Assembly (NCBI RefSeq): GCF_004634385.1
Contig: NZ_CP037895.1
Span: 186,001 to 250,000 of the forward strand
Source of the DNA: Thermaerobacter sp. FW80
GTDB lineage: Bacteria > Bacillota > Sulfobacillia > Thermaerobacterales > Thermaerobacteraceae
Length of the DNA: 64,000 nucleotides
Reading direction: 5' to 3'
Position numbers and translations under genes: made by a program. This document shows positions 16,534 to 44,124 of this stretch, piece by piece. The stretch's first letter is position 1. Every line of letters starts with the position of its first letter. Below the pieces are notes generated by a model. It was not told the origin of the DNA, did not search any database, and saw only the letters and a list, made by a program, of their open reading frames with translations.

Positions 16534-17098
16534 GTGGCCAAGGTGCTCATCCTCACGGGTGACGCCGTGGAAGCGCTGGAAGTCTACTACCCCCTGTACC
16601 GGTTGAAGGAAGCAGGGCACGAGGCCCACGTGGCGGCACCGACGAAGAAGACGTTGCGGACCGTCGTCCACGACTTTGAGCCGGGCTGGGAGACGTTCAC
16701 GGAGAAGCCGGCCTACCAGCTGCAGGCGGACCTCGCCTGTCGACGTGAAGCCCGAGGAGTACGACGGGCTGATCCTACCCGGCGGCCGGGCACCGGAATA
16801 CATCCGGCTGAACGAGCACGTGCCGCGCATCGTGGGCCACTTCTTTGAGGCCAACAAGCCCATCGGCGCCATCTGCCATGCCGCCCTGGTGTTCGCGCGG
16901 CTGAAGGGCCACCTGAAAGGGCGAAAGTTGACGGCGTATACCGCCTGCCGGCCGGACGTGGAGTCTCTGGGCGCGTCCTACGTGACCGAGCCGCTGCACG
17001 TCGACGGCAACCTGGTGTCGGCCCACGCGTGGCCCGATCTGCCCGGCTTCATGCGCGAATTCCTGCGGCGGCTTGACGATTTAACCCGTAATCAGTAA
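16534..17098 (+). pseudogene. DJ-1/PfpI paralogue with a frameshift
   Basis: Second copy of the gene at 3-500, highly similar through to the C-terminus (GAICHAALVFARL, VTEPLHVDGNLVS). It starts at GTG 16534 after AAAGGGTGATCC. Around 16739 the reading frame slips: after ...QADLA the continuation VDVKPEEYDG is in another frame, equivalent to loss of 2 nt relative to copy 1 (GCC-TGTCGAC here, GCGTTCGCCGAC there). The catalytic cysteine lies after the slip, so no functional product is expected unless this is a sequencing error. Otherwise undamaged, so inactivation is recent. Confidence 0.85.
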
Positions 17099-17144
17099 CC
17101 ACTGGTGCTTTGCCACCGACGGCAGGCGTCGGGCGATAGCGCAT

Positions 17145-17172
17145 GACCCCCCACCCCAGGGGGTGGGGGGTC
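17145..17172 (+). terminator. Terminator after the DJ-1 paralogue
   Basis: GACCCCCCACCCC pairs with GGGGTGGGGGGTC, followed by TTCC. Same stem length and position as the hairpin after the first DJ-1 copy. Confidence 0.7.
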
Positions 17173-17334
17173 TTCCATGCCGCTTTCCGTAGAACGCAAG
17201 GGGTGGGTGGCAGGCTTCATTGAGATTGGCAATTGCGGTTCGTCGTGCTGACAACATGCACATACTAGCGGGTTACCGTAGGACGGTTCCAACGCCTTGT
17301 CCCTCTTCCTTGGCATTCTGACCTCCCTGAATGC

Positions 17335-18760
17335 GGTCAAGTCCCGAACTGTCTGTAAAAGCGGTCTGGGTCATGCCACGGTGGCAGGGGGTGAAACCTC
17401 TTTCTGCGCCGCTCTTTGCCGTTGCCGCTCCTCGATGTAGCGCTCCAGCTGCTTTCGTTCGTGCTCGCTGAACTGCACCCGCCGCCAGCGCTCACTCGCC
17501 CGCCACAGCACGGCGAAGACCAGCTTCAGGCACTCCCGCTCGCTCCGAAACCGCGGGATCACCTTGGCGCGCCGCCGCTCCTCCTCGAAGCTGCGCTCCA
17601 CCAGGTTGGTGGTCCGGACATGCTTGCGGTGGGCGGCGGGTAGCCGCAGGTGCGCCAGGCTCGCTTCCAGGTCCTCCTCCAGGCTCCGCATGGCCGAGGG
17701 ATACTCCCGCCCGAACCGCTCCACCACCTCGGCCACCAGCCGCCGGCCCTGCTCGATATCCGGTGCGTCCCGGATCGCCTCCAGGTAGGGCTTGAGCACG
17801 GGCCGCGCCTCCTCCGGCACCTTGGCCAGCACGTTCCGCATCTTGTGCACCCAGCAGCGGATGCGCTCCGCCTCCGGCCACATGGCTTCCACCGCCTGGA
17901 TCAGCCCCGGCGCCCCGTCCGTCGTCACCGTCAGCGGCGTCTTCAGCCCCCGGCGCACCAGATCCCGGAAGTGCTCCAGCCAGTCCTCGTAGCGCTCCTT
18001 GTTGCCCAGGCTCAGGTGCACCAGCACCTTGCTGCCGTCGCTCAAGATGGCCCAGGTGACCAGGATGCCCTCACGGCAGCCCGCCTGCCGGCGCAGCGAC
18101 TCGTAGATGGCGTCGGCGAACAGCTACACCACGTCGAGGCCTGACAGGTCCCGCTGGGCAAAGGCCTCGAACTCCTCGTGGAGCGCCTCGGTGATCCGGC
18201 TCACGGTGGACCGGCTCAAAAGCGGCGCTTCGCTGCCCGCCAGCTCCGCCAGCGCATCCTCGATGTCCCGGGTAGAGAGGCCCCGGGCGTACATCTCCAC
18301 CACCAGGCGCTCCAGCACGTCCGTCCGCCGCTTGAGGGCCCTCCACAGCGTGGGCTGGCACAGTCCCTCCATGCCCCGCACCTGGGGGACGTCGATCTCG
18401 AGCCGCCCCTCGGCGCAACGCAGCGTCCGCGGCTTGTAGCCGTTGCGGGCGCCTTCCTGGCCCGGCTCGCGCCGCTCGTAGCGTCCGCGCCCCAAAAGCT
18501 CCGTGACCTCTGCCTCCAGCAGCTCCTGGATGAGCTTGCGGGCGCCCAGGCGGACGAGGGCATGGGTCAGGTCCTCGACCTCCGTACCCTCCCGGGCCTG
18601 CTCGGCCAGCTGCCGGGCCAGCTCCGCCAACTGCTGGCTGGGTGGTATCCTGGACATCGGTCTGGGTCCTCCTCGGTGTGCCCCAGCTGGGGCGAGTTTT
18701 CCGACGCCACCGATGGTAGCCCAGACCGCTTCGCGTTTACAGACAGTTTAGGACGTCACC
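17335..18760 (-). mobile_element. IS256-type element 'a', copy 2 (inactive)
   Basis: 1426 bp with the same ends as copy 1, inverted. The flanks (CCTGAATGC at the left, ATCATGGAA at the right) do not match, so no target duplication survives. The right end abuts the clipped left end of an IS21-type element. The transposase has an amber codon and several substitutions, making this the most decayed of the four copies. Confidence 0.93.
17371..18657 (-). pseudogene. IS256-family transposase (type a) with internal amber codon
   Basis: Same 428-codon frame as copy 1, but the tyrosine of GLDVVYLFADAIYE, codon TAC, reads TAG at about 18124-18126 by a single C-to-G change. The stop falls just before the first catalytic aspartate. 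Other differences from copy 1 include LAEQ for LAAQ, LAKVPEE for LDKVPEE and LEEDLE for LQEDLE. Confidence 0.93.
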
Positions 18761-18866
18761 ATCATGGAATTCCCCACCTCCGCGATCATGGAATTCCCCA
18801 GCGGGACGGGCCTCAGGCAGGGGCAGATCGAATCCGGCCCTCAACCCACACCGGGAGGTTGAGGGC

Positions 18867-20423
18867 ATGGCGCGGAGGTCGTGGACCGTGGTCCAGATTG
18901 TTGACATCTACCTGCATTGGCAGGCAGGCCGTAGCATCCAGGCCATCGCCCGCAGCCTGGGCATCGACCGCAAGACGGTACGCAAGTACATCCGGGTCGC
19001 GTTGGCGGCAGGGTTCGAGCCGGGTGTGGCACGCACACCGGAGCAATGGCGCGCGTTCGTGCGCGAGCGGTTCCCCGGGCTGGAGGATCCCCGCCGGCGC
19101 TCGGACCGTTTCGCCTTGCTCGACCCCTACCGGGACTTCATCCGCGAGGGCCTTGCAACCAACCGGATGAGCACGGTACACCGGCGCCTGGTGGCCCAGA
19201 CGGGCCTGCCCGTGAGCATCGCCACCTTCCGGCGCTACGTGCACGCCACGTTCCCGGAGCTGCTCCTGCCCGCGGCCTCGGTGCCCGTGTGGCGACCGGA
19301 GGTGGAGCCCGGTGAAGAGGCGCAGGTGGATTTCGGCTACCTGGGGCTCTGGCTGGACCCGGTTCGCCAGCGCACCATGCGGGTGTACGCCTTCACCATG
19401 GTGCTCAGCTACAGCCGCCACCTCTTCGCCCGGCTGGTCACACGCCTGGACCAGGAGACCTGGCAGGACGGCCACGTGCGCGCTTTCGCCTTCTTCGGCG
19501 GCATCCCACGGCGCATCGTCCCCGACAACCTCAAGCCCGGCGTGCTCAAGCCCGACCTGTACGATCCCGTGCTGAACCGAACGTACGCCGAGCTGGCCGC
19601 GCACTACGGCTTCCTCATCGACCCGGCTCGAGCCGGCCGCCCGAAGGACAAGCCGCGCGTGGAGCGCGCCATTCCCTACCTGCGAGAGAGCTTCTGGCAG
19701 GGACAGGCGTTCGTCCACCTCGACGCCGCCAACCGGGAGCTGGAGCGTTGGTGCCTCGAAGTGGCCGGGCAGCGCGTGCACGGCACGACCCGCCGCCGGC
19801 CCGTCGAGGTGTTCTGCGCCGAGGAACGCCCACGCCTTTTGCCCCTGCCTGCTACGCCGTGGGAGCCATGGATCTGGACCGTGGCCAAGGTGGCACCCGA
19901 CAGTTACTGCGGCGTCGCCGGTGCGCTGTACTCGGTGCCCTACACCTTGCGCGGTCAGCGCCTGGATGTGCGCCTCACCCCGAAACGGGTGCAGTTCTAT
20001 CGCGGTGAGGACCTCGTCAAGACCCACGTGCGCGGGCCCAAGGGCAGCCGAACCACCGACCCGGCCGACCTGCCGCCGGACCGGGTCGCCTTCTACCAGC
20101 GCACGCCCCCGTGGTGCCTGCAACAGGCCCGCGCCCTGGGACCGTCCGTGTTCGAGCTCGTCCACCAGCTCCTCCAGGGGCATACGCTCACTCACCTGCG
20201 CCAGGCTCAGGGCATCCTCCGCCTCGGCGAGCGCTTCGGCCCCGGGCGATTGGAGGCCGCCTGCCAGCGCGCCCTGGAGTTCGGCGATCCCCGCTACCGC
20301 ACTGTCAAGAACATCCTCGAACGCGGCTACGACCAAGCCTCGGGGCCTCAGCCGACCCCCGCGTGCCGCGGCGACGCCTACCTGCGGGGCCCCGGGGCCT
20401 ATACCCTCACGCCCAGGAGGTGA
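18867..20423 (+). CDS. istA: IS21-family transposase IstA
   Basis: 518 aa, unrelated in detail to the IstA at 6258. It has an N-terminal helix-turn-helix (GRSIQAIARSLGIDRKTVRK) and a DDE core with QVDFGYLG, RIVPDNLKPGV and KPRVERAIPYLRE. ATG 18867 follows GGGAGGTTGAGG. Six nt separate it from istB. Intact, so the element may be active despite its clipped left tip. Confidence 0.93.
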   Translation: MARRSWTVVQIVDIYLHWQAGRSIQAIARSLGIDRKTVRKYIRVALAAGFEPGVARTPEQWRAFVRERFPGLEDPRRRSDRFALLDPYRDFIREGLATNRMSTVHRRLVAQTGLPVSIATFRRYVHATFPELLLPAASVPVWRPEVEPGEEAQVDFGYLGLWLDPVRQRTMRVYAFTMVLSYSRHLFARLVTRLDQETWQDGHVRAFAFFGGIPRRIVPDNLKPGVLKPDLYDPVLNRTYAELAAHYGFLIDPARAGRPKDKPRVERAIPYLRESFWQGQAFVHLDAANRELERWCLEVAGQRVHGTTRRRPVEVFCAEERPRLLPLPATPWEPWIWTVAKVAPDSYCGVAGALYSVPYTLRGQRLDVRLTPKRVQFYRGEDLVKTHVRGPKGSRTTDPADLPPDRVAFYQRTPPWCLQQARALGPSVFELVHQLLQGHTLTHLRQAQGILRLGERFGPGRLEAACQRALEFGDPRYRTVKNILERGYDQASGPQPTPACRGDAYLRGPGAYTLTPRR

Positions 20424-20428
20424 CCGCT

Positions 20429-21214
20429 GTGCAGGTGCATCAGCTCGAGCGCCTGCTCAAGAAGCTCAAGCTGGGGGGCATGCTCGCCACTCTCCAACAG
20501 CGGTTCGAGCAGGCCCAGGGCCAGCAGCTCGGCTACCTCGAGTTCCTCGTGCTCCTGCTGGAGGACGAGATCGCCCGCCGCGACCAGAAGACCCTCGCCC
20601 TGCGCGTGGCCAAAGCCCGTTTTGAGGAGGTCAAGACGCTGACCGACTTCGACTTCCGGGCCAGCCCGAAGATTCCCGCCGCCCTCATCCGCGACCTGGC
20701 TACCCTGCGCTTCCTCCAGCGCCAGGAGTCCGTGCTCATCTGCGGGCCTGTGGGCGTGGGCAAGTCCCACATCGCCCAAGCCCTCGGGTACCTCGCCTGC
20801 CAGCAGGGCTACCGCGTCCGCTACGTCAAGACGCCCCGCCTGCTGGCCGATCTCGGCGGTGGCCGTGCCGACGGCACCTACGACACTCGCCTACGTAGCT
20901 ACCTCGGTCCGGACCTGCTCATCCTCGACGACTTCGGCCTGCAGGCGTTCACCGCCACCCAGTCCGAGGACCTCGATCAGCTCATCTGCGAGCGGTACCT
21001 GCGCCGCTGCACCATCGTCGTCTCCAACCGGCCGCCGCAGGAGTGGTACACCCTCTTCGCCGATCCCGTGCTGGCCGAAGGTGCGCTGGACCGGCTTGTC
21101 AACGCCTCGCACCACGTGCTTATGGACGGGCCCAGTTACAGGCCCCGCAAACGGCCCGGCAGCACCACCACCCTAACCGCCGATCCCACCGGGGAGGTGA
21201 TGCCGTCCGCGTAG
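20429..21214 (+). CDS. istB: IS21-family helper ATPase IstB
   Basis: 261 aa AAA+ protein with Walker A GPVGVGKSHIAQA and Walker B LLILDDFGLQA. The open frame extends upstream inside istA, but the GTG at 20429 has a textbook AGGAGG at 20415-20420 and gives the normal IstB N-terminus (VQVHQLERLLKKLKLGGM). Intact. Confidence 0.93.
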   Translation: MQVHQLERLLKKLKLGGMLATLQQRFEQAQGQQLGYLEFLVLLLEDEIARRDQKTLALRVAKARFEEVKTLTDFDFRASPKIPAALIRDLATLRFLQRQESVLICGPVGVGKSHIAQALGYLACQQGYRVRYVKTPRLLADLGGGRADGTYDTRLRSYLGPDLLILDDFGLQAFTATQSEDLDQLICERYLRRCTIVVSNRPPQEWYTLFADPVLAEGALDRLVNASHHVLMDGPSYRPRKRPGSTTTLTADPTGEVMPSA

Positions 21215-21238
21215 CGAAACAGCCGAGTCGACCCCAAG

Positions 21239-21327
21239 TGGGGCAATCCGTGATCGCCCCACTGGGGAATTCCATGATCGGAGCCGTGGGGAATTCCGTG
21301 ATCGAACCCTGGGGAATTCCGTGATCG
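21239..21327. repeat. Four iterons at the right end of the IS21-type element
   Basis: Four tandem copies of TGGGG(A/C)A(T)TCC(A/G)TGATCG start at 21239, 21263, 21287 and 21310. The innermost is the most diverged (GGGGCAATCC). The period of about 24 bp suggests transposase-binding sites on one helix face every second turn or so. Confidence 0.85.
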
Positions 21328-21404
21328 TCGACAGTACAGCATGATTGAAATATGCATCATGTTTCCCACGACATTGACCGTTCGATCCAAATCCGCTCCG
21401 AGTT

Positions 21405-22829
21405 GGTCACGTCCCGTCAAGTGGTGTGATTTGCGCTCCCCTCGGGTTTGAACGCCTTACATGGCCAGCACCTTCAGGGTTGCTTCGGTTTCATGGAGCC
21501 GCGTAGCCTCATGTGATGTACACGCGTCAATCTTGGCCATCGACTCCAGGCTGAAGTACCGCCGGGACACCAGCCATTCGTCCTGTTGCTCCTCGAGAAG
21601 AGCTCCCAACAGGCGGATGGCGGCGGCCATGTTCGGGAAGATCCCCACCACGTCGCAGCGCCGGGCCAGTTCCCGATTCAGCCGCTCCAGAACGTTGGTC
21701 GAGTGGATCCGCCGCCAGTGCTCGGTCGGGAAGGCCATGTACGCCAGCACGTCCTCCATTGCATCCCGAAGCAGAGCGGCGGCCTGGGGGAATCGCCGGT
21801 CCAGGTTGGCTGCCACGTGTTCCAGCTGCTCCCGGGCGGACTCCAGGTCGGGCTGGGCGAAGATCGTCCGCACCAGGGCCGCCACCATCGGCTGGGCGTG
21901 CTTGGGCACCCGGGCCAGCAGGTTCCGCATGAAGTGCACGCGGCACCGTTGCCAGCTGGCGCCCGCCAGCACCTCGCTGATGGCGCGCTTGAGCCCCTCA
22001 TGGGCATCGGAGATGACGAGGCGAACACCCTTGAGCCCGCGGGCCACCAGGCTGCGGAGAAACGCGAGCCAGAACTCGTACGTCTCGGCGGCGCCCACGT
22101 CAAAGCCCAGCACCTCGCGCTCCCCGGTTCGCTTCACCCCGACGGCGATGACCGCGGCCATGTTCACCACCCGGTGGTCCTGCCGCACCTTGATCGGCTT
22201 GGCGTCGAGCCAAACGTAGGGGTACTCGCCTTCCAGGGGACGGTTGCGGAAGCGCTCCATCCGCTCGTCCAGTTCCGCGCAGAGTCGCGACACCTCGCTC
22301 TTGCTGATGCCGTCCAGGCCCAAGGCCCGGACCAGGTCGTCGACCTTCCGGGTGCTGACCCCCTGCACATAAGCCTCCTGCACCACGGCGACCAGGGCCC
22401 GTTCCGCCCGCCGGCGTGGCTCCAGCAGGCTTGGGAAGTAGCTGCCCTGGCGGAGCTTTGGGATCCGCAGCTCGATGGTGCCCACGCGGGTATCCCAGGG
22501 CCGGGAGCGATAGCCGTTCCGGTAGGTCTTGCGCGTTTCCGTGCGCTCGTACCGCTGAGCGCCAACGAGTTCGCTCACCTCGAGCTCCATGAGCTGTTGG
22601 GCCAGCCAGCGTAGTCCTTCCCGCAGGGCATCGGCTTCCGGCTCCCCCTGGTGTTTGCGTAGAAGCTCGAGAAGTGCCATCCTGAAATCAGCGGTCACCG
22701 GTGAGCGGACCTCCCTTCATGGCGGTTCTTGTCCAACCCGAAGGGGAGCCACCGGTGACCTTTCTTGTCAAGGGCCACCAGGCTCGGGCCCTACAGCCCG
22801 GCGATTTCCACCACCACCTGGGACACTAA
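21405..22829 (-). mobile_element. IS256-type element 'b', copy A
   Basis: 1425 bp; left end GGTCACGTCCCGTCAAGTGG, right end (inverse) TTAGTGTCCCAGGTGGTGG. Target duplication CTCCGAGTT at 21396-21404 and 22830-22838. It appears identical to copy B at 29205 in opposite orientation. Confidence 0.96.
21457..22698 (-). CDS. IS256-family transposase (type b)
   Basis: 413 aa. The catalytic triad is visible in YVWLDAKPIKV, VISDAHEGLK and NVLERLNRELARR, with CRVHFMRNLLARV between. The GTG start is preceded by GGGAGG; an internal ATG six codons on is an alternative. The same protein is encoded at 29336; the 41709 copy is close and the 32755 copy more diverged. Confidence 0.96.
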   Translation of the reverse strand: MTADFRMALLELLRKHQGEPEADALREGLRWLAQQLMELEVSELVGAQRYERTETRKTYRNGYRSRPWDTRVGTIELRIPKLRQGSYFPSLLEPRRRAERALVAVVQEAYVQGVSTRKVDDLVRALGLDGISKSEVSRLCAELDERMERFRNRPLEGEYPYVWLDAKPIKVRQDHRVVNMAAVIAVGVKRTGEREVLGFDVGAAETYEFWLAFLRSLVARGLKGVRLVISDAHEGLKRAISEVLAGASWQRCRVHFMRNLLARVPKHAQPMVAALVRTIFAQPDLESAREQLEHVAANLDRRFPQAAALLRDAMEDVLAYMAFPTEHWRRIHSTNVLERLNRELARRCDVVGIFPNMAAAIRLLGALLEEQQDEWLVSRRYFSLESMAKIDACTSHEATRLHETEATLKVLAM

Positions 22830-23610
22830 CTCCGAGTTCCACAACAAACCGATCGCTAAATACTTGCCGCGTTGCGCCCGAGTGCGCTGCTGCAGTTCAT
22901 CAAAGTAACTATCGCCAAAGTCAACACAAACGAGAAGCCGAACCTCGGCCGCAGAGAAAATGATCTTTTGGAAATCCTCTTGCACTGCCAGTCGACCAGC
23001 TAGCTCACTTTCGCATGCCAACACAAGTCTCTTGATCCACCCGTCGTCATCTACTTCCACCCAGCACAAGTCCCACAGCCACTCACCGTTGTGGTACTTG
23101 CTACGAACATGAAGCCCCTTGCTACGCCCCAGCTCCCCCAGCCCACGGAGAATTGCTTCGGTGGCCATCGACCACTGCCAGCCTGGGTCGGAGGGGCGGA
23201 GAGATAGACTATCAAGGCTCTCTTGAATGGACCGTTGGATCTCATCTGCCGACACCACGGAGTGGGTCCAGCCCGCCACTTCCCACCACCTCCCAATTGT
23301 ATGCAATTCGTCCCAGATACAGCTGTACCTTCCGCGAACGGTATACAAGGACGCGCTAGGCGCGTAAGTTTGCACTTGGTTTTCAAGGACTGGCCCTGGC
23401 GCCTGGTCTGTGCGTCTCCGAGAAAGAGCTGGCGTAATTCGTGGCAGCTTGACCTTTTTGATGAAATTGCCATCCCGGGCGTTCATCGTCTGGCCATGGT
23501 GCATAAGCGAGGAGCGCGGGAGGATCCCCTGCGCCAGGTCCTCACAGAATGATAAAGGCCGAGCCTATCAGGCACGGCCTGCGACCTATCCCAGAGGAGG
23601 TACCCTCAAA

Positions 23611-24949
23611 AGGTGTGTAAATGGCGAAGGCGGTGTACCCTCCTCTTGGTGAACAACGAGGGCTTGGAAGCCCGGAGGGAGGAGAGCCACCGCCATGCAC
23701 CAGCGGACCACGTCGGGGAACCTGACGTCAAGCCCCACCTGGGAAGGACTGCACGAGTGGCTGCGGAACGCGATCCAGGCGCTGATCCAGGAGGCGCTGG
23801 AGGCCGAGGTGACCGAGCTTTTGGGCCGGGTCCGCTACCAGCGGCGTGCCGCCGTCGATGCACCGGCCGGGTACCGGAACGGGTACGGCAAGCCGCGGAA
23901 GCTGACCACCCCCATGGGCACCCTGACCCTGCGGCGTCCCCGGGTGCGGGGCCTCGAGGAGCGGTTCGAGAGCCGGATCCTGCCTCTGTTCGTTCGGCGC
24001 ACGAAGGAGGTCTCGGAGCTGTTGCCGGAGCTGTACCTGCACGGGCTGGCCGAGGGGGACTTCGACCTGGCCCTGCGGGGGCTGCTCGGTGAAGAGGCGC
24101 CGCTTTCCGCCCGGACGGTGGCGCGCCTGAAGGAGCGGTGGCAGGCGGAGTGGGAGGCCTGGCGGACGCGGCGGCTGGATGCGCTGCAGGTGGTCTACCT
24201 GTGGGTGGACGGGGTGTACGTGAAGGCGGGGTTGGAGCGGGAGCGGGCGGCGCTGCTCGTGGCCGTGGCGGGCCTCGTGGACGGCCGCAAGGAGGTGGTG
24301 GCGGTTGTGCCGGGCTACCGGGAGTCGGTGGCGAGCGGGTCGGAGGTGCTGCGGGACCTGCGGGACCGAGGGATGAACGCGCCCAGGCTGGTGATCGGGG
24401 ACGGGCACCTAGGGATCTGGGGCGCGCTGCGCAACGTCTGGCCGGAAGCGGAGGAGCAGCGCTGCTGGAACCACAAGGTGCTCAACGTGCTGGAGCAGCT
24501 GCCGCGCCGGCAGCAGGCCGTGGCCAAGCCCATGCTCCGGGCCATCGCCTACGCCCCGACCCGGGCGGAGGCGGAACGGAAGCGCAAGGCGTTCGAGGCC
24601 TGGTGTCACCGGCACGGCTACGGGAAGGCGGCGGAGACGCTGGGGCGGGACTGGGAGCGCATGGTGACGTTTTACCGGTACCCCAAGGAGCACTGGCGCC
24701 ACCTGCGGACCACAAACGTGGTGGAATCCCCCTTCGCCGCGCTGCGGCTGCGTACGGACGCGGCCAAGCGGTTCAAGAAGGTGGAGCGGGCCACGGCGGT
24801 GATCTGGAAGATGCTCATGGTGGCCCAGACCCGCTTCCGGCGGCTAAGCGCCCCGGAGTTGCTGGCCAAGGTCTACGCCGGGGCGCGGTACGAAGACGGC
24901 ATCGAGGTCGCGGAGAAGGGGGTCGCCGCCTGAGCGCATTTACACACCT
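23611..24949 (+). mobile_element. IS256-type element 'c'
   Basis: About 1.34 kb bounded by AGGTGTGTAAATG at 23611 and its inverse CATTTACACACCT ending at 24949. The flanks (ACCCTCAAA and ATTGACGGA) do not match, so there is no target duplication. One intact transposase. Single copy in this window. Confidence 0.88.
23695..24933 (+). CDS. IS256-family transposase (type c)
   Basis: 412-aa IS256/mutator transposase of a different subgroup from types a and b. The triad is at VYLWVDGVYV, LVIGDGHLG and TNVVESPFAALR, with RCWNHKVLNVL preceding the helical insertion. ATG 23695 follows GGAGGAGAGCC. Intact. Confidence 0.95.
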   Translation: MHQRTTSGNLTSSPTWEGLHEWLRNAIQALIQEALEAEVTELLGRVRYQRRAAVDAPAGYRNGYGKPRKLTTPMGTLTLRRPRVRGLEERFESRILPLFVRRTKEVSELLPELYLHGLAEGDFDLALRGLLGEEAPLSARTVARLKERWQAEWEAWRTRRLDALQVVYLWVDGVYVKAGLERERAALLVAVAGLVDGRKEVVAVVPGYRESVASGSEVLRDLRDRGMNAPRLVIGDGHLGIWGALRNVWPEAEEQRCWNHKVLNVLEQLPRRQQAVAKPMLRAIAYAPTRAEAERKRKAFEAWCHRHGYGKAAETLGRDWERMVTFYRYPKEHWRHLRTTNVVESPFAALRLRTDAAKRFKKVERATAVIWKMLMVAQTRFRRLSAPELLAKVYAGARYEDGIEVAEKGVAA

Positions 24950-25042
24950 ATTGACGGAAGCTCTCCCAGAGTACTGGTACCGTATACCGTTACGCGCTTT
25001 GCGCCTCAACGTGAGGAGTGTGGGCTATCCCCTTGCGCCGCC

Positions 25043-26468
25043 GGTGACGTCCTAAACTGTCTGTAAACGCGAAGCGGTCTGGGCTACCATCGGTGGCGTC
25101 GGAAAACTCGCCCCAGCTGGGGCACACCGAGGAGGACCCAGACCTATGTCCAGGATACCACCCAGCCAGCAGTTGGCGGAGCTGGCCCGGCAGCTGGCCG
25201 CGCAGGCCCGGGAGGGTACTGAGGTCGAGGACCTGACCCATGCCCTCGTCCGCCTGGGCGCCCGCAAGCTCATCCAGGAGCTGCTGGAGGCAGAGGTCAC
25301 GGAGCTTTTGGGGCGCGGACGCTACGAGCGGCGCGAGCCTGGCCAGGAAGGCGCCCGCAACGGCTACAAGCCGCGGACGCTGCGTTGCGCCGAGGGGCGG
25401 CTCGAGATCGACGTCCCCCAGGTGCGGGGCATGGAGGGACTGTGCCAGCCCACGCTGTGGAGGGCCCTCAAGCGGCGGACGGACGTGCTGGAGCGCCTGG
25501 TGGTGGAGATGTACGCCCGGGGCCTCTCTACCCGGGACATCGAGGATGCGCTGGCGGAGCTGGCGGGCAGCGAAGCGCCGCTTTTGAGCCGGTCCACCGT
25601 GAGCCGGATCACCGAGGCGCTCCACGAGGAGTTCGAGGCCTTTGCCCAGCGGGACCTGTCAGGCCTCGACGTGGTGTACCTGTTCGCCGACGCCATCTAC
25701 GAGTCGCTGCGCCGGCAGGCGGGCTGCCGTGAGGGCATCCTGGTCACCTGGGCCATCTTGAGCGACGGCAGCAAGGTGCTGGTGCACCTGAGCCTGGGCA
25801 ACAAGGAGCGCTACGAGGACTGGCTGGAGCACTTCCGGGATCTGGTGCGCCGGGGGCTGAAGACGCCGCTGACGGTGACGACGGACGGGGCGCCGGGGCT
25901 GATCCAGGCGGTGGAAGCCATGTGGCCGGAGGCGGAGCGCATCCGCTGCTGGGTGCACAAGATGCGGAACGTGCTGGACAAGGTGCCGGAGGAGGCGCGG
26001 CCCGTGCTCAAGCCCTACCTGGAGGCGATCCGGGACGCACCGGATATCGAGCAGGGCCGGCGGCTGGTGGCCGAGGTGGTGGAGCGGTTCGGGCGGGAGT
26101 ATCCCTCGGCCATGCGGAGCCTGCAGGAGGACCTGGAAGCGAGCCTGGCGCACCTGCGGCTACCCGCCGCCCACCGCAAGCATGTCCGGACCACCAACCT
26201 GGTGGAGCGCAGCTTCGAGGAGGAGCGGCGGCGCGCCAAGGTGATCCCGCGGTTTCGGAGCGAGCGGGAGTGCCTGAAGCTAGTCTTCGCCGTGCTGTGG
26301 CGGGCGAGTGAGCGCTGGCGGCGGGTGCAGTTCAGCGAGCACGAACGAAAGCAGCTGGAGCGCTACATCGAGGAGCGGCAACGGCAAAGAGCGGCGCAGA
26401 AAGAGGTTTCACCCGCTGCCACCGTGGCATGACCCAGACCGCTTTTACAGACAGTTCGGGACTTGACC
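25043..26468 (+). mobile_element. IS256-type element 'a', copy 3
   Basis: 1426 bp, same ends and orientation as copy 1. The target duplication TGCGCCGCC lies at 25034-25042 and 26469-26477. Inserted 93 nt after IS256-c. Confidence 0.97.
25146..26432 (+). CDS. IS256-family transposase (type a)
   Basis: 428 aa, reading the same as the copy-1 transposase at 8825 in every part I compared, with FADAIYE, TTDGAPGL and LVERSFEEE. Intact. Confidence 0.96.
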   Translation: MSRIPPSQQLAELARQLAAQAREGTEVEDLTHALVRLGARKLIQELLEAEVTELLGRGRYERREPGQEGARNGYKPRTLRCAEGRLEIDVPQVRGMEGLCQPTLWRALKRRTDVLERLVVEMYARGLSTRDIEDALAELAGSEAPLLSRSTVSRITEALHEEFEAFAQRDLSGLDVVYLFADAIYESLRRQAGCREGILVTWAILSDGSKVLVHLSLGNKERYEDWLEHFRDLVRRGLKTPLTVTTDGAPGLIQAVEAMWPEAERIRCWVHKMRNVLDKVPEEARPVLKPYLEAIRDAPDIEQGRRLVAEVVERFGREYPSAMRSLQEDLEASLAHLRLPAAHRKHVRTTNLVERSFEEERRRAKVIPRFRSERECLKLVFAVLWRASERWRRVQFSEHERKQLERYIEERQRQRAAQKEVSPAATVA

Positions 26469-26781
26469 TGCGCCGCCGGCGCCGGACTTCCTGGCGTTCG
26501 ACGGACATGTAGCAACGGGAACGCGGATTCCAGCGCATGATATACCGTCCCTCGGCCACGCCTTTTTCTCCCAGAAGGGCTAGGAGTTGCTTGCTGCTCG
26601 TCCGGCCGGTCTTCTTGTTCACCAGCCATGCTTCGGTGTCGGCCGGACCCGCCTTCGCCAGTGCTAGCTTGCCCCCGCGAACCCCCAAAAGGATTCTCAG
26701 CGGCTGATCCTGCTTATCGTCCCCCAGAAGCTCACGTCGCAACGTGCTGGAAAGAACGACGGCCTTCTGATCCACGGTCAC

Positions 26782-27558
26782 CGCCAGGGTTTCACGCCTC
26801 GTCTGCTTGTTTCCATCTCCTGTCTTACGAATCCACTCGACCGCCCCCGGGGCCTACCTCCCTTGGTTATATGAAGAGAGTCACGCGCCGGCCGAACTGC
26901 TCTGCCTGTACCATCCAGTACAAGCATAAGCATATCGACGGCAGAGCAATGCGAAAAAGGCATCATTGCCCCGCATTTCGTGACTCATCGTCTTGATTGT
27001 CCCCAAGGAGGTGCAACCATGGGACAGATGTTACACACCCCCTCTGCCTGAACTGCTGGCACCGGACTCGGACACCGGGAACCCCGGCTACACGGATCGG
27101 GTTTGCGAAGCACATGCGCTGCTAATGTTCCAGAATGCGGCGCTGGCGTGCGAATTTCCTCGTGTGACTCCTTGATCGCTGGATGCACCCGCACCCCCTA
27201 GCAGAAGATACGGTCCGGTCGGTTCGACGAGGACCGGGCCTTCAAGCTGTGCCTGCAGCTCACAGGACTCCCCTTTCACCGCAACCACCGGCGCAACCCC
27301 GCTCCCGGGTATCCTTCTTGAACCACAAGGTCCGCCCTTAGAGCTTCTTCTGTGGAAGGTTCGTGCCGCCATGTTGTCGTACCATTCGACGGTTGTCGTG
27401 CTCTCCCCATCCTTCATCCCGTGAGACGTACACGGATAGGACCAATGAGGCCCAATGAGCTCCTGGGGCAAATTAGAGGCCTTGGCGGCGGCTACATGGT
27501 TGGCACCGCCCCTCCGTCGAAACAAAGAACCACCTCGCAGCAGGAAGGAGGTGGTTAC
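26782..27558. other. 777-nt region without a convincing gene
   Basis: A minus-strand frame at 27088-27525 (145 codons, with VAPVVAVKGESCELQAQ) has no ribosome binding site and no recognisable family. A strong AAGGAGGTG at 27005 precedes ATG 27019 and a 10-codon frame (MGQMLHTPSA, TGA 27049-27051), which could be a leader peptide or the 5' tip of a deleted gene. The rest shows nothing I can support. Confidence 0.45.
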
Positions 27559-27747
27559 ATGCCCGGCGTAGACGCCCTCGATGTAGACACGCTCAACGAA
27601 CGGGTACGCGAATGGACAGAAGAAGCCTTGGCAAAGTTACGCGAGATGGGGGTACCCTTGATTAATCTCAGGGCCTTACGTTATGCGGAGCTCCCGCCGG
27701 CGGTCGATTTCGGCATGGACTGGGAACCCCAGGCAAAGGCCCGGTAA
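27559..27747 (+). CDS. Small hypothetical protein, 62 aa
   Basis: ATG 27559 sits 8 nt after a consensus AAGGAGGT. The product begins MPGVDALDVDTLNERVREW and continues as an amphipathic helix (EEALAKLREMGV) with an aromatic, acidic tail ending WEPQAKAR. A terminator-like hairpin follows at 27851. This combination argues for a real expressed small gene, though the family is unknown. It could also be the N-terminal part of a truncated protein. Confidence 0.6.
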   Translation: MPGVDALDVDTLNERVREWTEEALAKLREMGVPLINLRALRYAELPPAVDFGMDWEPQAKAR

Positions 27748-27850
27748 CCCTCAAGTTTTCCGTCTCCACGTCATCGCTGCTCCAGCAGGGAGCTGACGCC
27801 ATCGTAAGGCACGTGTTGGCCCACTTTTCCTAAGACCCCGCTCCCCCCTG

Positions 27851-27882
27851 GTGACCGCTCAGGCTTGTGCCTGGGCGGTTAC
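27851..27882 (+). terminator. Hairpin after the 62-aa gene
   Basis: GTGACCGCTCAGGC pairs with GCCTGGGCGGTTAC over 14 bp including two G-T wobbles, loop TTGT, followed by TGCTTCTT. The following 280 nt up to the HEPN-like gene hold nothing recognised. Confidence 0.65.
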
Positions 27883-28162
27883 TGCTTCTTAGCCGCTCGG
27901 CAGCCGGTTAGCCTATGGCCTCCGGTCGCACCGTCAAGGGGCGCCTGGCCCTGCGCGCCAAGGGCTGCCAGCAGCCTGGCGCCTTTTCCAGATGGCGTTC
28001 CTTCCGGCCCTGGTGGGGTACCCAGGTCTGGCGGCCAGCAAAGCGGCTCAGCGAGGCGCGCAACGGGGCGCATTGTGGGCCACAGACAAGGGGGCAGGGT
28101 CCAGCTGGGTGCCGCTCCTTGCACATCAATTCGCACGACAAAAGAACACGCAAATGTCGTAA

Positions 28163-29059
28163 TCATAATCGCTCTTTTAACAACATGTATCGCGCCAATG
28201 CCTGCATTTCAATTACCTCCGAAACACTCAGACGTCGTTTGTACTTGCTTTTACCATGTGCAGCCACCCTATCCCGAATTTCATGGAATTCAACAATCTT
28301 GTTGAAGAGCGTATCCTTCTTCCGAAACCCTAACCGAATATCAGGATCAAAACCTTTGCTCCGAAGAAGTACTGCCAATTTATGAGGCTTAGTCTTGGTA
28401 GGTTCCCCGATAATAGCTTCGATACACTTGAACGCGTTTTGCGCCGCGGATTCGGCTTCCGATACAGAAACGTGCGGCTTGAATTGATCATCATATCCTT
28501 GTACCTGCCAGTCGCAGTGGTCCCATCCTAGCTCCTTAATACTTTGATAAAGATAAAATGCGGATCTCCGGAAATCTTCGTCCCTGAAGCAGCTGTTAAT
28601 CCATGGAAAACATTTTTCAAAAGGAATGCCTGGCACACTGTATGCACGAAAGACCCTTTCGAACTCTTCTATTGCACGAAAGCAGGAGTAGATCTCATCC
28701 AAGCAGTTTTCCAACAACCATTGCTTGCTTAGGGGTACAGTAAGCCGTGATCTAATATCGTGAGGTAGGGGCAATGGAGACAACCCTAATTCTACATGAG
28801 AACAGAAGGCTAAAATAGTGTACACAGCTTGCATGCTTTCCACCATTTCTAGAGCCGTCTCAAATGAGACTGGCCTCCCACAATCCAATACTAGCATTGC
28901 ATAGATGACAGTGCTCCGTGGTATGTCTTTTTTTAAGGTAATCCAGTCGACCCGCGGCGGCTCGTGAAAGGACTTTTCCGTTATCCAAGGTGTGCATTCA
29001 GGTACGCATTCCATCTGTTCCCGAAAACCAAGTATTAGGTAGTAACGACTGTGTTCCAT
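28163..29059 (-). CDS. HEPN-like hypothetical protein, AT-rich
   Basis: 298 aa from ATG 29059 (after GGGGGG), or 308 aa from an in-frame start ten codons upstream that lacks such a site. The C-terminal third is helical with EFHEIRDRVAAHGKSKYK followed by a helix ending EMQALARYMLLKE; RDRVAAH fits the R-x(4-6)-H motif of HEPN domains (Apea-like group). HEPN proteins are often RNases in toxin-antitoxin and phage defence. Base composition is far poorer in GC than every neighbour, which indicates recent transfer. No partner gene is adjacent: an orphan between IS elements. Confidence 0.6.
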   Translation of the reverse strand: MEHSRYYLILGFREQMECVPECTPWITEKSFHEPPRVDWITLKKDIPRSTVIYAMLVLDCGRPVSFETALEMVESMQAVYTILAFCSHVELGLSPLPLPHDIRSRLTVPLSKQWLLENCLDEIYSCFRAIEEFERVFRAYSVPGIPFEKCFPWINSCFRDEDFRRSAFYLYQSIKELGWDHCDWQVQGYDDQFKPHVSVSEAESAAQNAFKCIEAIIGEPTKTKPHKLAVLLRSKGFDPDIRLGFRKKDTLFNKIVEFHEIRDRVAAHGKSKYKRRLSVSEVIEMQALARYMLLKERL

Positions 29060-29204
29060 TGAATTAGCCCCCCGCAGTGCCGGGATCATCGGCGCGTCGC
29101 CGAGATTCTTGACGAGTGGCGCGACATGAGCAGGGCCCCCGGTTATCGCCTATGATTTCGGCAACATCTCAAACAGTGAGATACAACGCGCTAGAGTCGC
29201 CCGG

Positions 29205-30629
29205 TTAGTGTCCCAGGTGGTGGTGGAAATCGCCGGGCTGTAGGGCCCGAGCCTGGTGGCCCTTGACAAGAAAGGTCACCGGTGGCTCCCCTTCGGGTTG
29301 GACAAGAACCGCCATGAAGGGAGGTCCGCTCACCGGTGACCGCTGATTTCAGGATGGCACTTCTCGAGCTTCTACGCAAACACCAGGGGGAGCCGGAAGC
29401 CGATGCCCTGCGGGAAGGACTACGCTGGCTGGCCCAACAGCTCATGGAGCTCGAGGTGAGCGAACTCGTTGGCGCTCAGCGGTACGAGCGCACGGAAACG
29501 CGCAAGACCTACCGGAACGGCTATCGCTCCCGGCCCTGGGATACCCGCGTGGGCACCATCGAGCTGCGGATCCCAAAGCTCCGCCAGGGCAGCTACTTCC
29601 CAAGCCTGCTGGAGCCACGCCGGCGGGCGGAACGGGCCCTGGTCGCCGTGGTGCAGGAGGCTTATGTGCAGGGGGTCAGCACCCGGAAGGTCGACGACCT
29701 GGTCCGGGCCTTGGGCCTGGACGGCATCAGCAAGAGCGAGGTGTCGCGACTCTGCGCGGAACTGGACGAGCGGATGGAGCGCTTCCGCAACCGTCCCCTG
29801 GAAGGCGAGTACCCCTACGTTTGGCTCGACGCCAAGCCGATCAAGGTGCGGCAGGACCACCGGGTGGTGAACATGGCCGCGGTCATCGCCGTCGGGGTGA
29901 AGCGAACCGGGGAGCGCGAGGTGCTGGGCTTTGACGTGGGCGCCGCCGAGACGTACGAGTTCTGGCTCGCGTTTCTCCGCAGCCTGGTGGCCCGCGGGCT
30001 CAAGGGTGTTCGCCTCGTCATCTCCGATGCCCATGAGGGGCTCAAGCGCGCCATCAGCGAGGTGCTGGCGGGCGCCAGCTGGCAACGGTGCCGCGTGCAC
30101 TTCATGCGGAACCTGCTGGCCCGGGTGCCCAAGCACGCCCAGCCGATGGTGGCGGCCCTGGTGCGGACGATCTTCGCCCAGCCCGACCTGGAGTCCGCCC
30201 GGGAGCAGCTGGAACACGTGGCAGCCAACCTGGACCGGCGATTCCCCCAGGCCGCCGCTCTGCTTCGGGATGCAATGGAGGACGTGCTGGCGTACATGGC
30301 CTTCCCGACCGAGCACTGGCGGCGGATCCACTCGACCAACGTTCTGGAGCGGCTGAATCGGGAACTGGCCCGGCGCTGCGACGTGGTGGGGATCTTCCCG
30401 AACATGGCCGCCGCCATCCGCCTGTTGGGAGCTCTTCTCGAGGAGCAACAGGACGAATGGCTGGTGTCCCGGCGGTACTTCAGCCTGGAGTCGATGGCCA
30501 AGATTGACGCGTGTACATCACATGAGGCTACGCGGCTCCATGAAACCGAAGCAACCCTGAAGGTGCTGGCCATGTAAGGCGTTCAAACCCGAGGGGAGCG
30601 CAAATCACACCACTTGACGGGACGTGACC
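29205..30629 (+). mobile_element. IS256-type element 'b', copy B
   Basis: 1425 bp, same ends as copy A, opposite orientation. The target duplication GTCGCCCGG lies at 29196-29204 and 30630-30638. Intact. Confidence 0.96.
29336..30577 (+). CDS. IS256-family transposase (type b)
   Basis: 413 aa, reading the same as the copy-A protein, with WLDAKPIK, ISDAHEGL and NVLERLNREL. GTG start after GAAGGGAGG. Intact. Confidence 0.96.
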   Translation: MTADFRMALLELLRKHQGEPEADALREGLRWLAQQLMELEVSELVGAQRYERTETRKTYRNGYRSRPWDTRVGTIELRIPKLRQGSYFPSLLEPRRRAERALVAVVQEAYVQGVSTRKVDDLVRALGLDGISKSEVSRLCAELDERMERFRNRPLEGEYPYVWLDAKPIKVRQDHRVVNMAAVIAVGVKRTGEREVLGFDVGAAETYEFWLAFLRSLVARGLKGVRLVISDAHEGLKRAISEVLAGASWQRCRVHFMRNLLARVPKHAQPMVAALVRTIFAQPDLESAREQLEHVAANLDRRFPQAAALLRDAMEDVLAYMAFPTEHWRRIHSTNVLERLNRELARRCDVVGIFPNMAAAIRLLGALLEEQQDEWLVSRRYFSLESMAKIDACTSHEATRLHETEATLKVLAM

Positions 30630-30829
30630 GTCGCCCGGCCGGCTGGCGCGCGGCTTATTTAATATTTGAGAGCGTAAGCCAGGCCGTAGCGTTCGACAAT
30701 CTGATGGGCTTCTCCTTGTGTGTGTCCTGTAACCTGGCAATAAGCCTGAGCGAGCGTGGCGGCCGGATCGAGGGATGGCCGGTGATCCGTGATAGACGTA
30801 GCTTCCCCGGAAGTTTGCAAATAGTTTGT

Positions 30830-30866
30830 AAAAAGGCCCCGCGCGCTACGTTCGGCGCCGGGGCCT
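30830..30866 (-). terminator. Intrinsic terminator of the tRNA-Leu locus
   Basis: On the minus strand AGGCCCCG...CGGGGCCT forms a GC stem followed directly by TTTTT. It lies about 30 nt beyond the 3' end of the tRNA-Leu fragment. This is the only clear stem-plus-T-run terminator I found in the window. Confidence 0.8.
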
Positions 30867-30895
30867 ATGCCAGGTAACCCTTGATATGCCTTGTG

Positions 30896-30951
30896 TGCCG
30901 GGGGTGGGCCTCGAACCCACACGGGCTACCCCCAGCGGATTTTAAGTCCTC
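30896..30951 (-). tRNA. tRNA-Leu(UAA), 3' half only
   Basis: Read leftward, the sequence runs from the anticodon stem (GAGGA) through loop CTTAAAA with anticodon TAA, a class II variable arm (GGGGGTAGCCC), a perfect T-arm (GTGGG-TTCGAGG-CCCAC), the 3' acceptor strand CCCCGGC and discriminator A at 30896. No matching 5' strand (GCCGGGG) or D-arm exists within 60 nt upstream, so the 5' half is replaced. CCA is not encoded. This is what remains downstream of an integrase that uses the anticodon loop, or a deletion. The 230 nt to its right (30952-31184) show nothing else. Confidence 0.8.
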
Positions 30952-31184
30952 GAGGGTGCCAGCGGCCTGAGCAAACTACTCCAGCGATTACAGCTGTCGG
31001 TTTCGGAAAACTCCACCAGTGGGGAGGCGCCGCCGTGGAACAAGGGACAGCGTTGCTGGTCAAACGCGATTACCGCCGTTCTGTGTCTTGTCCTTCCAGT
31101 TGGAGGCGCGGCGTTGACCATGAGCCAACTGCATAGGCGAGCGGTAAGTATTTCCCTGGCCCGGGCTAGTTCCCCCGGCCCATA

Positions 31185-32558
31185 TTACTCCACGAACTCG
31201 AACCGTGCCGTGAAGTGGCGTAGCACCTTCGGCTCGTAAGTGAACCGGACGCCCCGCACCCGCTCCCGTCGCCGGTAGACGCGGATCAGGGTGTCGGCCA
31301 CATCCTCCAGGTGCCGGCTCGTGTACACCCGCCGCGGAATCGCCAGGCGGAAGAACTCGAAGGGAGAAGGAAGCTGCCGGCCGGTGGCGGGGTCGCGGCC
31401 CATCATGAGGGAGCCCACCTCGACGCCCCGCACGCCCCCTTCAAGGTATGTCTCGATGGCCAGGGCGTGGCCGGGGAACTGTTCCGGCGGGATGTGGGGC
31501 AGGAATTTCCTGGCATCGACGAAGACCGCGTGACCGCCCACCGGCCACTGGATGGGCACGCCGCCGTCCCGGAGGAGCTGCCCCAGGTACTCCACCTGGC
31601 CCACCCGGTAGGCCAGATAGTCCGCATCCAGCGCCTCCCTGAGCCCCACGGCCATTGCCTCCATGTCCCGGCCGGCCAGCCCGCCATAGGTAAGAAAGCC
31701 CTCATAGGGGACGAGCCGCCCGCAGGCCTTCTCGTACAGCTCCTTGTCCCGGAAGGCGGCCAGGCCGCCGATGTTCACCAGCCCATCCTTCTTGGCGCTC
31801 ATCATCAAGCCGTCGCCGTAGGAGAACATCTCCCGGGCGATCTCCAGGGGGCTCTTGCCGGCGTAACCCGGCTCCCGCTGCCGGACGAACCAGCAATTCT
31901 CCGCATACCGGGCCGCATCGAAGAGCAGGGGAATGCCATGCCGCCGGGCGATCTCGCTGGTGGCCCGGATGTTGGCCATGGAGACGGGCTGGCCGCCGGC
32001 GGAGTTGTTGGTCACGGTCATGATGATGCAGGCGATGTCCTCCGCCCCGTGGTCCCGGATGAAGGCTTCCAGCCTGTCCAGGTCCATGTTGCCTTTGAAG
32101 GGGTACTCGCTCTCCGTGTCCATGGCCTCGGGGGTGACCAGGTCGACCGGCCGGCCGCCGGCCAGCTGCACGTGGGCCCGGGTGGTGTCGAAGAACATGT
32201 TGCTCAGGACGTACATGCCGGGGCGGGTGACGAGATTGGGCAGGACCACCTGCTCAGCACCCCGGCCCTGATGGGTGGGCAGCACGTAGGGGTAGCCCGT
32301 GATCTCCTCGACCACGTCCCGCAGCCGGTAGTAGCTGGCCGCGCCGGCGTAGGACTCGTCACCCCGCATCATGGCCGCCCATTGCTCCTGGCTCATGGCG
32401 CCTGTGCCGGAGTCGGTCAGCAGGTCGACGTAAACCTCGTGGGACCGCAGGGCAAAGACGTTGTAGCCGGCCCGCCGGATGGCGGCCTCTCGCTCCTCCC
32501 GGGAGATGAGCCGGATGGGTTCGACCATCTTGATCTTGAAGGGTTCGCCTCGGGGCAT
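31185..32558 (-). CDS. tnaA: Tryptophanase (tryptophan indole-lyase)
   Basis: 457-aa PLP-dependent beta-eliminating lyase of the tryptophanase/tyrosine phenol-lyase family. Present are [11 protein letters not shown]-like [23 protein letters not shown], the PLP-lysine motif MSAKKDG and [18 protein letters not shown] (Asp where tyrosine phenol-lyase has Thr) and VEVG (Val where that enzyme has the substrate-binding Arg) favour tryptophan, giving indole, pyruvate and ammonia. ATG 32558. No tryptophan permease or leader peptide is adjacent. A TrpB2 gene lies 3.7 kb away across two IS. Confidence 0.88.
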
Positions 32559-41213: not shown

Positions 41214-41577
41214 TGCTTTGTCTGTCCGTGAACCGAGTTGTCGTTGGCCTGGATAGAAGGCTTTACTCGTCTGGCCCACTTAAGCCATCCCACCGGTGGG
41301 CGGGGCGGGCCTGCACCTGGGGGATGCGTAGCCAATTCTCACCGGGATGATCACCATGGTTGTGGCTGCTGTAAAGCAGCTCTCCACCTCCACCCTGGCG
41401 ATCCTCACCCCAATCAGCCCGCCCAGCCGGCCGGTTGATGTGGCCGAGGTGGGGCTGGGCCGTATCGAAGGTTGCGGGCTTACTGGTTTAGTGGGAAAGC
41501 AGAGAAATGGGGTTGCCGGAGCGAAGATGCTAGCGTGGAGCGCAGAATAGGCCGTGTGGGCGAGAGTGTCGTCATGG
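41214..41577. other. Non-coding stretch, nothing recognised
   Basis: 364 nt between the CobW terminator and IS256-b copy C. Open frames on both strands lack ribosome binding sites and recognisable motifs. The right edge is the IS boundary, beyond which an IS110 remnant begins at 43004, so this stretch and that remnant were probably brought together by a deletion. Confidence 0.5.
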
Positions 41578-43003
41578 TTAGCGTCCCAGGTAGTGGTGGA
41601 AATAGCCGAGCCATAGGGCTCGGCCCTGGTGGCCCTTGACAAGAAAGGTCACCGGCGGCTCCCCTTCGGGTTGGACGAGTAATAGCTCGAAGGGAGGTCC
41701 GCTCACCGGTGACCGCTGATTTCAGGATGGCACTTCTCGAGCTTTTGCGCAAATACCAGGGGGAGCCGGAAGTCGATGCCCTGCGGGAAGGACTACGCTG
41801 GCTGGCCCAACAGCTCATGGAGCTCGAGGTGAGCGAACTCGTTGGCGCTCAGCGGTACGAGCGCACGGAAACGCGGAAGACGTACCGGAACGGCTATCGC
41901 TCCCGGCCCTGGGATACCCGCGTGGGCACCATCGAGCTGCGGATCCCCAAACTCCGCCAGGGCAGCTACTTCCCCAGCCTGCTGGAGCCCCGCCGGCGGG
42001 CAGAGCGGGCCCTGGTCGCCGTGGTGCAGGAGGCTTATGTGCAGGGTGTCAGCACCCGGAAGGTCGACGACCTGGTCCGGGCGTTGGGCCTGGACGGCAT
42101 CAGCAAGAGTGAAGTCTCCCGGCTTTGTGCGGAACTGGACGAACAGATGGAGCGTTTCCGGAACCGCCCCCTGGAGAGCGAGTACCCCTACCTGTGGCTG
42201 GATGCCAAGCCGATCAAGGTACGGCAGGACCATCGCGTGGTGAACATGGCCGCGGTCATCGCCGTGGGGGTGACGCGAACCGGGCAGCGCGAGGTGCTGG
42301 GCTTTGACGTGGGCGCGGCCGAGACGTACGAGTTCTGGCTCGCGTTTCTCCGCAGCCTGGTGGCCCGAGGGCTCAAGGGCGTTCGCCTGGTCATCTCGGA
42401 TGCCCACGAGGGACTCAAGCGCGTCATCAGCGAGGTGCTGGCGGGCGCCAGCTGGCAACGGTGCCGCGTGCACTTCATGCGGAACCTGCTGGCCCGGGTG
42501 CCCAAGCACGCCCAGCCGATGGTGGCGGCCCTGGTGCGAACGATCTTTGCTCAACCCGACCTGGCGTCTGCCCGGGAGCAGCTCGAACACGTGGCCGCCA
42601 ACCTGGACCGACGATTCCCCCAGGCGGCCGCTCTGCTCCGGGATGCAATGGAGGACGTGCTGGCCTACATGGCGTTCCCGGCCGAGCACTGGCGCCGGAT
42701 CCACTCGACGAACGTCCTGGAGCGGCTGAACCGGGAGTTGGCCCGGCGCTGTGACGTAGTGGGGATTTTCCCGAACGTCGCCGCGGCCCTGCGGCTACTG
42801 GGGGCTCTTCTGGAGGAGCAGCAGGATGAGTGGTTGGTGTCCCGGCGGTACTTCAGCCTGGAGTCCATGGCCAAGATCGATGCGAACCCACCCCGTGAGG
42901 ACTCTCAGCTACACGAGAGTTCGGCAGCACTGAAGGTGCTGGCTGTCTGATCAACCCAACCCGGAGGGGACACGACTTTTCCACCACTTGACGGGACGTG
43001 ACC
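41578..43003 (+). mobile_element. IS256-type element 'b', copy C
   Basis: 1426 bp with type-b ends (TTAGCGTCCCAGGTAGTGG; inverse right end GGTCACGTCCCGTCAAGTGG). The flanks TCGTCATGG and TCCAGCACC differ, so no target duplication. Its right end cuts an IS110 transposase gene whose other part is absent on the left. Confidence 0.92.
41709..42950 (+). CDS. IS256-family transposase (type b)
   Basis: 413 aa, close to copies A and B with scattered substitutions (KYQGEPEVD, ESEYPYLW, GVTRTGQREV) and a different C-terminal tail. Triad at WLDAKPIK, ISDAHEGL and NVLERLNREL intact. Confidence 0.95.
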   Translation: MTADFRMALLELLRKYQGEPEVDALREGLRWLAQQLMELEVSELVGAQRYERTETRKTYRNGYRSRPWDTRVGTIELRIPKLRQGSYFPSLLEPRRRAERALVAVVQEAYVQGVSTRKVDDLVRALGLDGISKSEVSRLCAELDEQMERFRNRPLESEYPYLWLDAKPIKVRQDHRVVNMAAVIAVGVTRTGQREVLGFDVGAAETYEFWLAFLRSLVARGLKGVRLVISDAHEGLKRVISEVLAGASWQRCRVHFMRNLLARVPKHAQPMVAALVRTIFAQPDLASAREQLEHVAANLDRRFPQAAALLRDAMEDVLAYMAFPAEHWRRIHSTNVLERLNRELARRCDVVGIFPNVAAALRLLGALLEEQQDEWLVSRRYFSLESMAKIDANPPREDSQLHESSAALKVLAV

Positions 43004-43787: not shown

Positions 43788-44124
43788 GTGCGGTCCCGGC
43801 CGGCAGGACGCCTGCAGGATGGGGGCTGGGTCCGGCAGGAACTGCGCCCGCCAGCGCGAATGTTCTTTGCTTGGGTGTCGGACGCTCCGCCCTGTGCGCG
43901 GGTCCGGGGCGCCGGCGCCCGTTCCAAAAATCCAGCGCGGCGGTCCTGGGGGAGCTCGGGGAACCGGGCTGAGAGGGCGCCTAGTCCGGCGCCGACCCCT
44001 GCACCCGATCCGGGTAATACCGGCGTGGGGAACGGTTCACCGCCAGGTGCGTCCGCCACCCCGGCCGGGGTGGCATGCGTTTTCCCCGCCCCGCCTCCGC
44101 CCGCGCGGGAAGGAGGCCCCTGCC
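43788..44124. other. Intergenic stretch with one strong palindrome
   Basis: 337 nt with no supported gene. At 44055-44074 a perfect 20-bp palindrome, GCCACCCCGG|CCGGGGTGGC, is followed by ATGCGTTTTCCCC; it could be a terminator for upstream transcription or an operator for the transporter genes that start at 44125. Confidence 0.5.

Follow-up and report, generated by a model that had tools for sequence, protein, structure and literature searches.

An orphan tRNA-Leu(UAA) 3' half in Thermaerobacter sp. FW80 and its proposed origin as a relic att core

The tRNA fragment and its surroundings

The window analysed here is a stretch of 64,000 nucleotides from Thermaerobacter sp. FW80 (C1:186001-250000), whose genome of 3.04 Mb is represented by three contigs. 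A part of a tRNA gene lies in this window between mobile-element debris and a metabolic gene. The features of the locus are:

17189..30984, no strand: IS elements and debris absent from the syntenic locus of a congeneric genome (G001), delimited by flank matches to L044, with the tRNA fragment at the right edge
29196..29203, no strand: left target-site duplication of the IS, gtcgcccg, perfect 8 bp
29204..30629, plus strand: IS256/Mutator-family IS with a 413-aa Transposase_mut protein, a bystander
30630..30637, no strand: right target-site duplication of the IS, gtcgcccg, perfect 8 bp
30659..30829, minus strand: remnant of a DnaD/HTH_36-type replication initiator, C-terminal piece to the stop codon, 64-68% over about 40 aa to the Rep of C2
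30830..30866, minus strand: intrinsic terminator 3' of the fragment, hairpin and UUUUU, -25.3 kcal/mol, z=-4.0
30830..30894, minus strand: 3' flank of the fragment, unlike the host tRNA-Leu(UAA) flank and homologous to the tRNA-Leu(CAA) flank of a sister-genus genome (G004) by local and anchored alignment
30895..30949, minus strand: orphan tRNA-Leu(UAA) 3' part, an att-core-like identity block (54/55), with neither an ARAGORN call nor a 5' half
30985..31132, plus strand: decayed membrane-protein gene, presumably DUF2512-like, frame broken, common to the G001 locus (81% to G001:C1:585915-586067)
31185..32558, minus strand: tryptophanase-type beta-eliminating lyase (Beta_elim_lyase, E=1e-85)

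The 55-bp block 30949-30895 is identical at 54 positions to C1:926889-926943, which lies in the sole intact tRNA-Leu(UAA) gene of the genome. It opens with three nucleotides of the anticodon stem (the GGA of its 5' strand), runs through the anticodon loop, variable arm, T arm and 3' acceptor strand, and closes one base past the discriminator (30896). The only mismatch is a C to G change in the variable arm. This agrees with the initial annotation of an orphan tRNA-Leu(UAA) 3' half, and tyrosine integrases that target tRNA genes use segments of this size and position. The 56-nt 3' segment expected in an intact tRNA-Leu(UAA) gene was indeed found there, with a shared block of 55 bp. Searching the genome with an 89-nt query containing the fragment gave one other near-identical site, again C1:926889-926943 (98%, E=3.4e-21). 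Identity to the corresponding tRNA of congeners is 95% and 93%, and thus below the 98% to the host's own gene.

Since neither ARAGORN nor Rfam calls a tRNA gene in the window, the fragment is not a functional gene. The sole Rfam hit in the window is a TPP riboswitch at 43938-44048 on the plus strand (58.9 bits, over the gathering score). The D-arm and 5' acceptor strand, reported as missing at the outset, are indeed absent: the alignment score for a decayed 5' half upstream of the fragment was below background, and genome-wide the 5' half matched only the intact tRNA-Leu genes with UAA and CAA anticodons. At C1:1085872, a match of 30 bp was rejected as a second orphan, as it is accompanied by no tRNA call and looks like ordinary GC-rich sequence.

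The terminator with a T-run noted earlier behind the fragment is genuine, as none of 200 shuffled sequences equalled the folding energy of 30866-30830. A simple terminator scanner made no call at this position, probably due to a bulge in the hairpin. Together with the fragment, the terminator also lies downstream of the tryptophanase gene on the same strand, and it may now end the transcript of that gene. The 3' flank was compared with other tRNA flanks. Its local alignment with the G004 tRNA-Leu(CAA) flank scored 26 (shuffled 7.6 +/- 1.5, 0/1000), and the same flank ranked first among 251 tRNA flanks in an anchored comparison with a score of 25.5 (mean 1.8, sd 4.4). The other top matches were the flank of tRNA-Leu(CAA) in G024 and, at rank 3, that of the native tRNA-Leu(UAA) in the congener G002, which has 7 bases beyond the tRNA end in common with the fragment flank and a similarly placed terminator. 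The G004 tRNA-Leu(CAA) with the fragment-like flank is an intact gene, and no integrase was recognised behind it on its contig. A flank that follows one leucine tRNA in one genome and another elsewhere fits an arm travelling with an element.

About 10 bases behind the fragment, at about 30876-30885 on the minus strand, the flank contains the motif ATCAAGGGTT. In many phyla, ATCAAGGGTT(TAC) is strongly over-represented 0-35 nt past tRNA gene 3' ends (L095-L330). The motif was found behind tRNA genes in at least 120 viral-contig stretches compared to 8 for the reversed motif, a clean control, and its longer form in at least 116 genome-contig stretches; a second control pattern with 36 matches resembles a tRNA start and is a poor control. 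A convergent tyrosine-integrase gene often follows 50-130 bp beyond the motif. According to a home-made and therefore rough integrase profile, a tyrosine integrase lies beside the motif in 24/35 viral and 14/59 genome cases, compared to 4/33 and 0/20 for tRNAs without it. Many copies form the first arm of a terminator-like hairpin; ATCAAGGGTT may be an integrase arm site, a terminator motif, or both. Its presence in the fragment flank was not accepted as proof of an integrase arm because 45/59 genome cases have no integrase within 1.6 kb and many copies are terminator-stem-like. A literature search for the string found no paper containing it.

The remnant of the replication initiator (30829-30659) begins a few bases past the fragment terminator. 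The reference Rep (C2:34068-35270) has an HTH_36 domain and adjoins parB on C2, a plasmid contig of 77.6 kb. The neighbouring IS256-family element has further copies in the genome that are 98-100% identical at the matched end. With its perfect target duplication, it landed cleanly within the Rep-remnant DNA and at a later time. Two other IS copies, at 17335-18760 and 41577-43003, lack the matching target-site duplications present at the other full copies of the window, which suggests recombination or deletion beside them. The insert further contains an AT-rich ORF of 308 aa (28163-29089, minus strand) with a composition clearly unlike the surrounding high-GC genome. It has no Pfam or PHROGs match and is likely foreign.

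Comparison with the syntenic G001 locus shows on which side of the fragment the additional DNA lies. Window positions 16503-17188 and 30985-31132 match G001 L044 8672-9377 and 9916-10068, respectively, and between these flanks 13.8 kb are found here compared to 538 bp in G001. The extra block lies left of the fragment and the G001-like sequence right of it. For the 35 bp that separate the fragment from the latter (30950-30984), an anchored extension of the backbone homology scored below shuffled sequences. For this reason, a candidate secondary attB match near the junction, G001 GTTACAGTCC against window CTTAAAATCC (7/10), was dropped.

tRNA-Leu(UAA) as an integration target

The intact tRNA-Leu(UAA) gene, called by ARAGORN at C1:926860-926944 on the plus strand, is located on the same replicon as the fragment, on the opposite strand and about 710 kb away. 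Its locus is syntenic on both sides in four congeneric genomes (G000, G001, G002 and G003), and the same genes resume 150-240 bp downstream. Based on this synteny, there is no island at the intact gene today.

Nevertheless, the gene probably carried an element in the past. In G004 (contig C243), a tyrosine-integrase gene lies directly behind tRNA-Leu(UAA) in convergent orientation (L047 3806-5080), with a disrupted frame; about 67 bp separate its stop codon from the tRNA end. In the host, the sequence flanking tRNA-Leu(UAA) is homologous to this integrase arm (z about 12.5) and not to the flanks of G001, G002 and G003. About 100 bp of the G004-type arm are kept here (L010 18945 onward), while the element is gone, and the translated flank contains what appear to be the last integrase codons (IPTRHQN compared to IPSRYQD in G004). 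The arm homology and this integrase-codon trace indicate that the host gene was probably once occupied by a G004-type element. This documents that elements integrate at tRNA-Leu(UAA) in this thermophile lineage.

An integrase tied to the fragment itself was not found. The statement that the window contains none can be extended, as there is none within 600 kb of the fragment, and a tblastn search with the integrases of relatives against 26400-31300 gave nothing significant. An integrase at C1:869899 falls in the 710-kb interval between fragment and intact gene, but adjoins tRNA-Ser and tRNA-Arg genes. No second junction was found, and phage, plasmid and viral-contig collections yielded no complete element with the fragment core and flank, only ordinary tRNA-Leu matches or nothing.

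Origin of the fragment

The fragment is probably a relic att core, either an attP or an attP-derived junction, of a decayed plasmid- or phage-like element that targeted tRNA-Leu(UAA). It reaches the tRNA 3' end and starts in a known crossover region. Beyond the tRNA end, its near-identity to the host gene gives way to non-homologous sequence, as in an attP. The combination of 54/55 identity with an unrelated flank is expected of a core kept in step with its target by a recombinase, and not of an old diverged copy. Such an element would carry a copy of the tRNA-Leu(UAA) 3' half, with the anticodon loop as the crossover site of its tyrosine recombinase. Once integrated, it would complete the tRNA with its own copy, and the adjoining arm could supply a new terminator. 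The element would now be dead and its integrase lost, leaving the core, the terminator-bearing arm and a scrap of the replication gene in a block that IS elements later filled and split. Element DNA would then lie 3' of the tRNA piece, to the left in the window.

The start at the anticodon stem, the match to the G004 tRNA-Leu(CAA) flank, the Rep remnant, the additional DNA on the left side and the integrase at the same tRNA in G004 together make this origin fairly probable. Against it stand the lack of an adjoining integrase, of a second junction and of a complete element with the fragment arm. Since no integrase adjoins, the fragment is classed as a proposed relic and not as an intact element. 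Furthermore, the likeness of the G002 native flank (rank 3/251) means that the fragment flank may be ancestral and native, and the short Rep match (about 40 aa) could be independent debris. Both the att-core nature of the fragment and its former membership of one element with the Rep scrap are inferred; the route of this DNA away from the tRNA gene would have been IS recombination, secondary-site insertion or rearrangement. A specific form of the second route is that an element with the tRNA-Leu 3' half in its attP was inserted by its integrase at a non-tRNA site beside the gene we take to be DUF2512-like, so that the right edge of the 13.8-kb block would be the integration junction. This is a rather improbable proposal. 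If true, it would have left a hybrid of tRNA half and backbone whose terminator now ends the tryptophanase transcript.

A different possibility is that the fragment remains from an additional tRNA-Leu(UAA) gene that had a terminator of its own, came as phage or plasmid cargo or as a genomic duplicate, and lost its 5' half by deletion. The complete 3' end with a good terminator and the location in mobile debris are in line with this, and phages do carry tRNA-Leu genes, which match the fragment stretch at 80-84%. However, foreign cargo fits poorly with 98% identity to the host gene and a non-homologous flank, whereas some native flank would be expected for a genomic duplicate. In both cases, a random break would coincide with the anticodon stem by chance only, in roughly 1 in 10 cases by our estimate. 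A truncated copy is therefore considered unlikely, although it deserves some weight.

The fragment could also be the displaced native half (attR), pushed with its old terminator to the far end of an element at the native tRNA-Leu(UAA) and later moved by about 710 kb through rearrangement. The present host tRNA flank is element-derived, so that the original flank is missing, and the common 7 bases and terminator placement of the fragment and G002 native flanks point in the same direction. However, the fragment flank is far closer to the G004 tRNA-Leu(CAA) flank, and Rep scrap instead of native sequence follows past the terminator. In addition, the native downstream genes still adjoin the intact tRNA, which would limit the moved DNA to about 120 bp. 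The fragment also has the opposite orientation and lies farther away than the 200 kb that Islander allows (PMC4383910). Displacement of the native half thus appears quite unlikely.

That the adjacent IS256 element broke a tRNA gene, as had been put forward as the alternative, is very unlikely. The IS lies only a few hundred bases from the fragment in an IS-rich region, but its perfect 8-bp target duplication indicates a clean, later insertion that did not break the tRNA. Moreover, the break point is about 320 bp from the IS end and the fragment 3' end about 265 bp, an orphan 5' half is absent genome-wide, and leftward the next IS copy that lacks a duplication (17335-18760) is 12 kb off.

An island running rightward from about 30952, as originally suggested from what is textbook geometry for a displaced 3' half taken alone, can hardly be upheld, because the right side is common to G001 and the extra DNA lies on the left, no integrase is near, and no rebuilt same-strand tRNA lies to the right, so that only an inversion reversing the block could rescue it. 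The full tRNA predicted for the island's other end likewise finds no counterpart, as the intact gene lies about 710 kb off and on the other strand, at a conserved, island-free site.

A relic att core therefore remains the reading that we prefer. The broader proposal of an integration scar retains support from the integrase at the same tRNA in G004 and the footprint at the host gene, while the rightward geometry does not. An isolated tRNA 3' half followed by a good terminator does not necessarily lie at an island's far end, since the arm of an element can bring a terminator, and the foreign side can only be told by comparison with a relative.

Comparison with known systems

Anticodon-centred crossovers account for about half of the islands in Islander (2083/3919), where tRNA and fragment must be 2-200 kb apart and have the same orientation (PMC4383910). 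The orphan fragment resembles the Islander tDNA fragments in that it is a 3' fragment starting from the anticodon with an intact cognate tRNA on the same replicon, and this tRNA is a target of such integrase elements in the sister genus. It differs in its opposite orientation, its distance of 710 kb, the lack of a tied integrase and the extra DNA on the other side. Because of orientation and distance, the pair fails the Islander filters for island ends.

The G004 element on C243 uses the same tRNA, and its arm matches the native tRNA flank of the host. The orphan fragment is, however, followed by a different sequence.

Integrative plasmids and temperate phages, e.g. pSAM2-like elements, have attP sites with tRNA cores at the anticodon loop. 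Compared to these, the fragment has neither an integrase nor an excisionase, and its site is degenerate and probably inactive. The likeness, from general knowledge of such elements, is a tRNA 3' half of 50-60 bp followed by non-host DNA, with a replication gene nearby. The orphan fragment thus represents an ordinary kind of genomic scar for which no new mechanism is needed.
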